A stretch of 64,000 bases of DNA from Alphaproteobacteria bacterium. GTDB taxonomy: Bacteria; Pseudomonadota; Alphaproteobacteria; UBA7887. A program made the position numbers and the translations under genes. The notes beneath the pieces were generated by a model, which was not told the origin of the DNA, did no database searches, and saw only the letters and a list, made by a program, of their open reading frames with translations. Of the stretch, positions 34,366 through 39,782 are shown in pieces. The stretch lies in NCBI GenBank assembly GCA_030739735.1, contig JASLYQ010000005.1:62001-126000 (forward strand), read 5' to 3'. Position 1 is the stretch's first letter; every line of letters begins with the position of its first letter.

Positions 34366-36334
<1,969 letters not shown>

Positions 36335-36377: not shown

Positions 36378-36404
36378 TTGGCACTGTCGCGACAAGACTG
36401 CCAA
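36378..36404 (-). promoter_or_regulatory. CIRCE-like operator upstream of groES
   Basis: TTGGCACTG, nine bases, GACTGCCAA: the exact 9-9-9 layout of the CIRCE element (TTAGCACTC-N9-GAGTGCTAA), with 14 of 18 arm positions matching the consensus. It lies 43 bases before the groES start, where HrcA-type repressors act. The arms are degenerate but keep the six outer complementary bases (TTGGCA/TGCCAA). No hrcA gene is in the window. Confidence 0.7.
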
Positions 36405-36619
36405 TAGCCGTCGCCGGGATATATGTAGGGCAACCGGTGCTGTCAAGCAGCGGAAGGGATCGCCTCGCTCGATTGCGGGTAAATTCTGCTGCAATAGTCG
36501 AGGCGATGAGCAAAACGGGCAAGATTGGCACGCTCCAAAACTTCCCTGGACTGGGCCGACATTTCGTCATCACGGGGGGGTCATATCCTCAGCATATTAG
36601 TTAGAGACAGGCTAGGGTA

Positions 36620-37005
36620 ACCCCTCTTCCAACGGCACGTAGAGACCGCAGCTAGCTCTACCTGCAAGCGTCCCCCGCGAATTCGCCACTCGCCAAAGAT
36701 CTGGAGAATCAGCGCGGTCCGGCCAGGCGCCCTGTAGCGCCATGCCTTTTTCAGGTCGCGCTGTTGCACGGGGCTCAAAGCCACCACATCGATAATGAAT
36801 GCTTCCAGTTGCCCATCAGGTGTGGCGTTAGGGATTCGCCAGCAGCTTCAACCTTTCCGACACCAAACTAAAGTGGCGGACCATTGCACCCATAGCCGCA
36901 GTGCCTCGGCCATCGTCACCTACAGCCAGACGGCACTGGTCAGGCCAACCGCTTCTGCCAAGCCTGCAGAATCATTGTGGACGACCGCCACGTTACGGCC
37001 ACTCG
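36620..37005 (-). pseudogene. hflX: Degenerate, truncated hflX (ribosome-associated GTPase)
   Basis: Directly after hfq on the same strand, where hflX normally lies, one minus-strand frame reads NVAVVHNDSAGLAEAVGLTS. After an in-frame TAG (36920-36922) and a one-base shift another frame reads FGVGKVEAAGE. Then the first frame resumes with IIDVVALSPVQQRDLKKAW, APGRTALILQIFGEWRIR and GGRLQVELAA. These match the N-terminal domain of HflX (FGKGKVEE, LSPxQQRNLEKA, DRTxLILDIFxxRARTxEGKLQVELA). A second stop lies at 36848-36850. The GTPase domain is entirely missing. The remaining intergenic sequence (36435-36619 and 37006-37089) holds no gene apart from the CIRCE-like region upstream of groES. Confidence 0.85.
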
Positions 37006-37089: not shown

Positions 37090-37341
37090 TCACTCTGTTT
37101 CGTCGTTCTGATTCGCCTCGAAAAGCTGGATCGGCGCCACCGGCATCACCGTTGAGATAGCGTGCTTGTATACTAGCTGCGATATTCCATCGCGACGCAA
37201 CAGCACACAAAAATTATCGAACCAGGTGATCACACCCTGCAACTTCACCCCGTTTACCAAGAACACGGTTAACGGCGTCTTGTTCTTCCGCACATAGTTC
37301 AGGAATACGTCCTGAACGTTTTGCGATTTCTCCGCTGCCAT
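37090..37341 (-). CDS. hfq: RNA chaperone Hfq
   Basis: This 83-residue Sm-like protein pairs small RNAs with mRNAs. The Sm1 motif is [20 protein letters not shown], followed by [20 protein letters not shown], and the Sm2 motif is VYKHAIST. The start at 37341 follows GGGGGG and yields the usual short N-terminus ([11 protein letters not shown]). It lies downstream of dat, in the conserved ntr-trk-dat-hfq order. The usual downstream partner hflX is destroyed here. Confidence 0.97.
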
Positions 37342-37464: not shown

Positions 37465-38316
37465 CTAAGAGGAACTCGCGAAGGCAAGATACAAGGTGAG
37501 AAGGTGCTCAGTCACACTGCCAGGGCGGCCGTTTGCAATAACCTTGTCATCAATTTGCACCACGGGCACGACAAAAGAGCTGGTGCTGGTGAGGAAGGCT
37601 TCCCGGGCAGCTTTGGCCTCGTCCAGGCTAAAGGCGCGCTCGACCACCGGCAAACCAGCATCGCGCGCAACCGCCAGCAAGCGGCGGCGGGTGATGCCGC
37701 TCAGGATCGCGTTACTTTCCGGACGGGTGACGATGGCGCCATCGTGGTCCACGATCCAGGCGTTGGAGTGGGTTCCCTCGGTGACCATGCTGTCGGCATC
37801 GACCTGCCAGGCCTCAAAGGCGCCAGCCTCTGCTGCCCCCTGTTTGGCAAGAACATTGGGAAGTAGAGCCACCGACTTTACGTCGCAGCGTTCCCAACGC
37901 TGGTCATGAGTCGACACCACCCTCACTCCCTCTATCAAGGCGGAGGCGCTTGCCGGACGAGATGAGCGCGCCGTCGCCACCACCGAGGGACGGACGTGTG
38001 CCGGAAAAGTATGTTCGCGCGGCGCTACACCGCGGCCGACTTGCAGGTAGACGATACCCTCGTCAACCCGATTCCGTCGCACCATCTCTTCGAGCACCGC
38101 GTCGAGGGCAGCGCGGGACATCGGTATCGCGATGCCGAGTTCGCCCAACGAACGCTCAAGCCGCTCATGATGCCATTCCCGGTCAACCAGCTTGCCATTG
38201 AGGACCGCCACGACCTCATAGACACCATCAGCAAATTGCATGCTGCGGTCTTCGATATGGACCTGTGCGGAATGGTGCGGCACATAGCGTCTATTGACGT
38301 AGGCAACGCGGGTCAT
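37465..38316 (-). CDS. dat: D-amino-acid transaminase (class IV aminotransferase)
   Basis: This 283-residue PLP enzyme of fold type IV probably interconverts D-alanine and D-glutamate with their 2-oxoacids. It has AYVNRRYVPHHSAQVHIEDR, FADGVYEVVAV and the catalytic lysine in CDVKSVALLPNVLAK. EGTHSNAWIV and SGITRRRLLAVA are phosphate-cup motifs. The start at 38316 overlaps the trkH stop (ATGA) and follows GGAGA. D-amino-acid transaminase at this place between trkH and hfq is conserved in alphaproteobacteria. Branched-chain transaminase is the main alternative within the family. Confidence 0.9.
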   Translation of the reverse strand: MTRVAYVNRRYVPHHSAQVHIEDRSMQFADGVYEVVAVLNGKLVDREWHHERLERSLGELGIAIPMSRAALDAVLEEMVRRNRVDEGIVYLQVGRGVAPREHTFPAHVRPSVVATARSSRPASASALIEGVRVVSTHDQRWERCDVKSVALLPNVLAKQGAAEAGAFEAWQVDADSMVTEGTHSNAWIVDHDGAIVTRPESNAILSGITRRRLLAVARDAGLPVVERAFSLDEAKAAREAFLTSTSSFVVPVVQIDDKVIANGRPGSVTEHLLTLYLAFASSS

Positions 38317-39782
38317 GGTTTCTCCAAGGCTCGTCGTTGCCAAAAGACCGGTGTTAATAGCACCAGAACCGCGAATACTTCCAGACGGCCGACCAACATG
38401 CCTGTCAAAAGCAACCACTTGGCGACCGTCCCGAGATCAGCAAGATCCGCCTTCACCTCAGTGACCTGAGACAGCAGCGGACCGGAATTGGTAAGAGCGC
38501 TTAAAGCCAGCGCCAAGGCAGTCTCGAAATGCAGGCCGGTCGCTGACAGCGTGATAGTCAAGAGGATTAGACAGAAGAGAAAAAGAACGAAAAATGACCA
38601 GACGGTCTGCATGACCTTATCATCCACCGCCGCCCGGCCGACCTTTACCGGGACGATGCCGTGTGGGTGATTGAGGCGGCGCAATTCACGAGCGCTCTGG
38701 CGCAGCAACAATAAGGCCCGCACGAGTTTGACCCCGCCAGCAGTTGACGCCGAGGCGCCGCCAATCAAAGCAAGGCCTGCAAGGAGCATAAGCCCGAAGA
38801 CGGATGTGGCGACGGTCGAGGTCTGGCTGGGAAAGCCGGTGGTCGTCGCCGCCGATACCACGAAGAACACCGTATCACGCAATCCGGCCATGCTGCCAGG
38901 TGAGCCAGCGGCAATTTGCACTAGCCAGAGGACCGCCACCGAGACGCTCAGCAATACCAGCCAAAAGCCAAGCTCTGGGTCGCAACGGTAAACCCGACGC
39001 TGACCGTTAAGAGCGGCCCAATGGACCAGAAAATTCATCGCGCCGGCCATCATGAAGACGATCAGAACGATCTCGACCATAGCGTTGCCAAGACCAGACG
39101 GGCCGCCCGTGTTCGGTACAAAGCCACCCGTAGATAGTGTCGTGAGCGCATAGCAAAGCGCCAAAAACGGCGGCAAGCCAGAGAGTAGCAGCGCTACCAG
39201 GCAAAAGGTCGTCAAAGTGACATAGGATATCGCGACGATTTTTAGAGCTTGGGCAAATTGGGGGCGGAAAGATCCCTGCCCTCGCCGCCGTCCAACCTCG
39301 GCGACCACATCGGTGGGCATGGCCAGGCTTGGAGCTAGCGCAACAGCGAAGAGCAGCGTGCCGAAGCCGCCTAGGTATTGCAGGATGGCGCGCCACAAGA
39401 CGATGCTGCGCTCGATTATTCCTGGATCCGCGAAGATCGAAAGCCCGGTCGTAGTCAGACCAGACATAGCCTCGAATACGGCGCCGGTATATTTTTCCAC
39501 ACCGCTGCTATAGGCGATGGGAATTGCGCCAAACAGCGCCAAGCTTACCCAGGCAAGAACGGTGAGCGCCAAGGCCTGACGGCGATCGACACCGCGTCCG
39601 GCATCACGGCCGACGATGAACAGTGCCACACCAACGAACAATGCCGCCCCGGCCCCAAGAGAAAAGCCAGCTGCAGCCAGGCTCTCGCCCTCGTCAAGTG
39701 CCAGCGCCAAGGGCAGACATTCCAGACCCGCAAAGACTATTAGCAACAGGCCAAGGACCCTGAAAAGCGAGGCCGAAACCAT
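38313..39782 (-). CDS. trkH: Trk potassium transporter membrane subunit TrkH
   Basis: This 489-residue potassium channel-like transporter has about ten hydrophobic helices and the four selectivity-filter repeats: MSGLTTTGLSI, LTTLSTGGFVPN, SAATTTGFPSQ and LSALTNSGPLL. It works with the TrkA gating protein, encoded six bases upstream on the same strand. Membership of the ntr-trk operon suggests co-transcription with nitrogen regulators. Confidence 0.94.
   Translation of the reverse strand: MVSASLFRVLGLLLIVFAGLECLPLALALDEGESLAAAGFSLGAGAALFVGVALFIVGRDAGRGVDRRQALALTVLAWVSLALFGAIPIAYSSGVEKYTGAVFEAMSGLTTTGLSIFADPGIIERSIVLWRAILQYLGGFGTLLFAVALAPSLAMPTDVVAEVGRRRGQGSFRPQFAQALKIVAISYVTLTTFCLVALLLSGLPPFLALCYALTTLSTGGFVPNTGGPSGLGNAMVEIVLIVFMMAGAMNFLVHWAALNGQRRVYRCDPELGFWLVLLSVSVAVLWLVQIAAGSPGSMAGLRDTVFFVVSAATTTGFPSQTSTVATSVFGLMLLAGLALIGGASASTAGGVKLVRALLLLRQSARELRRLNHPHGIVPVKVGRAAVDDKVMQTVWSFFVLFLFCLILLTITLSATGLHFETALALALSALTNSGPLLSQVTEVKADLADLGTVAKWLLLTGMLVGRLEVFAVLVLLTPVFWQRRALEKP

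Follow-up and report, generated by a model that had tools for sequence, protein, structure and literature searches.

The protein HflX helps to free stuck ribosomes, and in alphaproteobacterial relatives of the organism considered here its gene is located between hfq and groES. The question raised by the present locus is what has become of this gene in a genome (2.64 Mb, 98.8% complete, 69-contig draft) whose hfq-groES spacer is about half as long as in those relatives. Judged from the sequence, the spacer almost certainly contains an hflX pseudogene at its ancestral locus, adjoining an intact hfq. The 64-kb stretch of DNA that was analysed is referred to below as the window.

The hfq-groES locus and its neighbours

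The gene order hfq-hflX-groES-groEL is found in all family relatives with contigs reaching the locus (G001, G003-G006 and G008), preceded by trkA-dat and followed by hibD-mazG on contigs that are long enough, and also occurs in more distant Alphaproteobacteria, e.g. Thalassobaculum. The window keeps the gene order of the relatives, while the hflX slot holds only a remnant, and the placement after hfq given in the preliminary description agrees with this syntenic slot. Intact copies of hfq (37090..37341; 83 aa from ATG), groES (36047..36333) and groEL (34366..36036) are encoded on the minus strand. A CIRCE-like inverted repeat (36378..36404, minus strand), which by itself is not above chance in 64 kb, is still in place approximately 45 bp upstream of groES, suggesting that groESL could have remained unharmed when the preceding gene was lost. 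In a simple ORF survey the window is otherwise densely coding, with a gap of 656 bp here and none above 355 bp elsewhere, and this compactness and the intact neighbours point to an isolated loss of hflX rather than a general erosion visible in this region. A rearrangement splitting hflX was considered since mazG lies on the other strand, and was rejected as relatives with an intact hflX have mazG in this orientation too. In two Endolissoclinum loci (L075 and L078) no hflX occurs within 6 kb of dat; the neighbouring genes there are also gone and these loci are thus uninformative on the hflX locus studied here. The sister genome G002 yielded no groES match. Its Hfq shares 82% identity with that encoded in the window (a value for which the frame was not checked again), while TrkH (38313-39782) shares 48%, far below TrkA (78%) and Dat (72%).

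Identity of the remnant

A profile of 439 positions, constructed from 90 HflX ORFs of alphaproteobacterial relatives, was searched against all six frames of the 756-bp spacer. It matched 36641-36967 on the minus strand over positions 29-140 (65.7 bits, E 1.1e-21), and the remaining frames of the spacer gave no HflX profile match. The N-terminal (ribosome-binding) domain of HflX is still recognisable in this region; apart from a short frameshifted part it is read in one frame, which a single stop interrupts. The translated search against HflX proteins called for in the preliminary description likewise returned HflX matches, with intact proteins aligning to the remnant by tblastn at E 6.7e-12 when a clean query was used. 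The longest tblastn hits (L011 and L007; 1e-17) extend into an off-frame translation of hfq, their queries being stop-to-stop ORFs, and these parts were ignored. The Pfam domain GTP-bdg_N (PF13167) scored 25.3 bits (E 2.3e-5) against the 68-aa ORF, just below the cut-off of 25.4, and 25.6 bits in the genome scan, above the cut-off, as a partial match to positions 55-88 of 89.

The HflX peptides quoted previously were all recovered on the minus strand. The block ALSPVQQRDLKKAW...GRLQVELAAVS is found at 36781-36641, while FGVGKVEAAGES (36867-36832) lies in a frame differing from that of the blocks on either side. A further upstream block at 36967-36869, consisting of AGLAEAVGLTSAVWL and VTMAEALRLWVQWSATL separated by a stop, had been overlooked. 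An open frame of 68 aa (36787-36581) retains LSPVQQRDLKKAW and GRLQVELA. The search for a second hflX, also called for earlier, found none in the genome: PF16360 had no match, PF13167 had none outside the remnant, and TIGR03156 gave nothing better than 3e-11, a level reached by other GTPases. Homology at the orthologous locus and disabling lesions are thus accompanied by the lack of a functional copy elsewhere, as in a pseudogene.

Lesions and missing domains

HflX is expected to be encoded in an uninterrupted frame of about 425-435 aa, and to contain the PF16360 middle domain and a P-loop GTPase domain. The frame here is interrupted by a TAG stop (36920..36922, minus strand; seen with both tblastn and the profile) and two frameshifts within a 756-bp spacer, and both domains are absent. 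The in-frame stops reported in the preliminary description reduce to this genuine TAG, since a TGA near 36848 is in frame only through the frameshift, and the single frameshift described there proved to be two offsetting frameshifts, between which the shifted-frame segment FGVGKVEAAGES (36832..36867, minus strand) is located. The remnant has no recognisable start codon and a codon is missing from its GERART motif. It ends after GRLQVELAAVS, where the profile match stops at position 140 of 439, and the GTPase and C-terminal domains are gone. The reported absence of the GTPase domain is therefore borne out by both the profile and the lack of PF16360 in the genome.

The hfq-groES spacer measures 1472-1499 bp in five intact relatives (approximate in three of these, where lengths were derived from tblastn ends) against 756 bp here, giving a net deletion of approximately 720-745 bp. 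From the profile and the spacing, the scar of this deletion is placed at 36434..36640 on the minus strand, at the site of the GTPase and C-terminal domains in relatives and without detected HflX similarity. A stretch resembling the HflX C-terminus (REVLERANLARFAHRL, at approximately 36560-36510) is unsupported by the HflX profile. The missing C-terminal half of hflX was not found elsewhere in the window or genome.

Residue conservation and timing of the loss

Thirty-five columns of the HflX N-terminal domain are near-invariant (at least 93% invariant). The remnant retains 23 of these residues and intact copies 33-35, with the exception of one truncated by a contig end (at least 33 of 35 in 95% of intact copies). 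The invariant residues lost include the D of DRT, the R and A of ERART and the E of EG. Identity of the N-terminal domain to relatives averages about 0.44 in the remnant, compared to about 0.59 (sd 0.05) among intact pairs with similar Dat divergence. The nearest relative compared was L039, apparently of the sister genome G002 (MAG IP29b_bin.128). In a rough comparison over 64 codons picked from alignable blocks, the remnant is identical to L039 at 58, 75 and 31% of first, second and third codon positions, the corresponding values being 77, 85 and 37% for dat and 82, 91 and 46% for trkA. The ranking second > first > third can still be recognised, which suggests that most of the divergence arose under constraint and supports, if only roughly, a loss that took place recently compared with the split from L039. 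The loss had been described as recent enough to be readable; the remnant is indeed readable, while its date can be given only as after the split from the nearest genus, a bound resting on a relative for which the contig breaks off within hflX and whose own copy is only presumably whole.

Alternative explanations

As the genome is a 69-contig draft and the lesions are known from the assembly alone, assembly or sequencing errors might make an intact hflX look broken. Such errors would have to account for four lesion types together, for approximately 720-745 bp of missing sequence and for altered invariant residues, all this away from the ends of a contig that is 126 kb or longer and between intact neighbours, and this explanation is highly improbable. 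Marginally more credible, if still very unlikely, is that the remnant serves as a small useful N-terminal ribosome-binding peptide or as a non-coding element of the spacer. The 68-aa open frame with LSPVQQRDLKKAW and GRLQVELA, and the 47 open codons from ALSPVQQ to AAVS, would in principle permit a peptide, but the N-terminal half of the domain lies behind the stop and frameshifts, the invariant residues named above have been lost, and neither an Rfam match nor a promoter-like site above chance was found in the spacer. Chance similarity, or derivation from another GTPase, has a negligible probability since the syntenic slot holds a match of E 1e-21 to a domain specific to HflX, and nothing was found in its favour.

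Proposed course and frequency of the loss

The pseudogene reading suggests the following course of events. An ancestor carried the operon-like order dat-hfq-hflX-groES-groEL, and hflX presumably ceased to be needed in the lineage of this genome. Its start, GTPase domain and C-terminus were then lost through point changes, a stop, two small indels and the net deletion of about 720-745 bp, and a functional protein is probably no longer made from the remnant. RRF, alpha-tmRNA and a short HPF are encoded in the genome, and, from established knowledge of these factors, stalled or hibernating ribosomes are presumably recycled by RRF/EF-G and trans-translation. Bacteria survive the knockout of hflX and show modest phenotypes (PMC4770234, PMC7196661), and in Staphylococcus aureus normal growth does not require HflX, which overlaps with RRF/EF-G (PMC7196661).

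HflX had been presented as widely conserved, and 327 of 389 alphaproteobacterial genomes at least 95% complete do contain a full match (E <= 1e-60). The implied rarity of its loss was overstated, as the match is absent in the other 62 (about one in six), a few of which may have split genes; the hflX-negative genomes listed are mostly smaller than 2 Mb. The locus thus represents ordinary gene decay, of which it is one further documented case.

A possible link with ribosome dimerisation

The HPF of this genome (123 aa; L105:1492-1863, contig C30), encoded between rpoN-like and ptsN-like genes, contains the S30AE domain and lacks S30AE_C, which was not found elsewhere in this genome, while two sister genera with HPF at the same locus (G002 and G003) have both domains. 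G002 also encodes a second HPF-like protein (L109:1261-1887) with a fused domain that is probably of the cold-shock type (26.8 bits, cut-off 27). Long HPF dimerises through S30AE_C, which is needed for 100S dimers in other bacteria. The S. aureus HflX splits such 100S dimers (PMC7196661). The 100S-forming domain and the 100S-splitting GTPase are thus missing together in this genome, and their joint loss is suggestive. Without 100S particles one HflX substrate would disappear, which could render hflX dispensable. In tables counted by hand from two listings without phylogenetic correction, and hence a lead only, S30AE_C is present in 30 of the 62 hflX-negative and 246 of the 327 hflX-positive genomes of the class sample (Fisher p 5e-5), and in 56 of 67 small (<=2.0 Mb) hflX-positive genomes (p 3e-5 against the hflX-negative set). 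Four relatives of the same family (G001, G004, G006 and G008) have no HPF (PF02482) match though their hflX is intact, which weakens a causal reading, and a link of the hflX loss to the loss of ribosome dimerisation through an HPF without S30AE_C is considered unlikely here. A testable link between the two losses in Alphaproteobacteria is nevertheless suggested.

Comparison with known systems

HflX is a ribosome-splitting GTPase (TIGR03156) comprising GTP-bdg_N (PF13167), GTP-bdg_M (PF16360) and a GTPase domain. The remnant resembles it in the residues of the N-terminal domain and in lying immediately behind hfq, as hflX does in E. coli and in relatives, but differs in the stop and frameshifts, the changed invariant residues and the absence of the middle, GTPase and C-terminal domains. 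The same gene has been lost in reduced genomes: lineage-specific retention and loss of hflX have been reported in Baumannia (PMC4758232), and among Patescibacteria the gene shows poor conservation (PMC12641178). Unlike these, the present case concerns a compact 2.64-Mb genome in which the still readable remnant is the sole apparent pseudogene of the 64-kb window, and it provides an intermediate stage of hflX loss that can still be read, with its surroundings intact.
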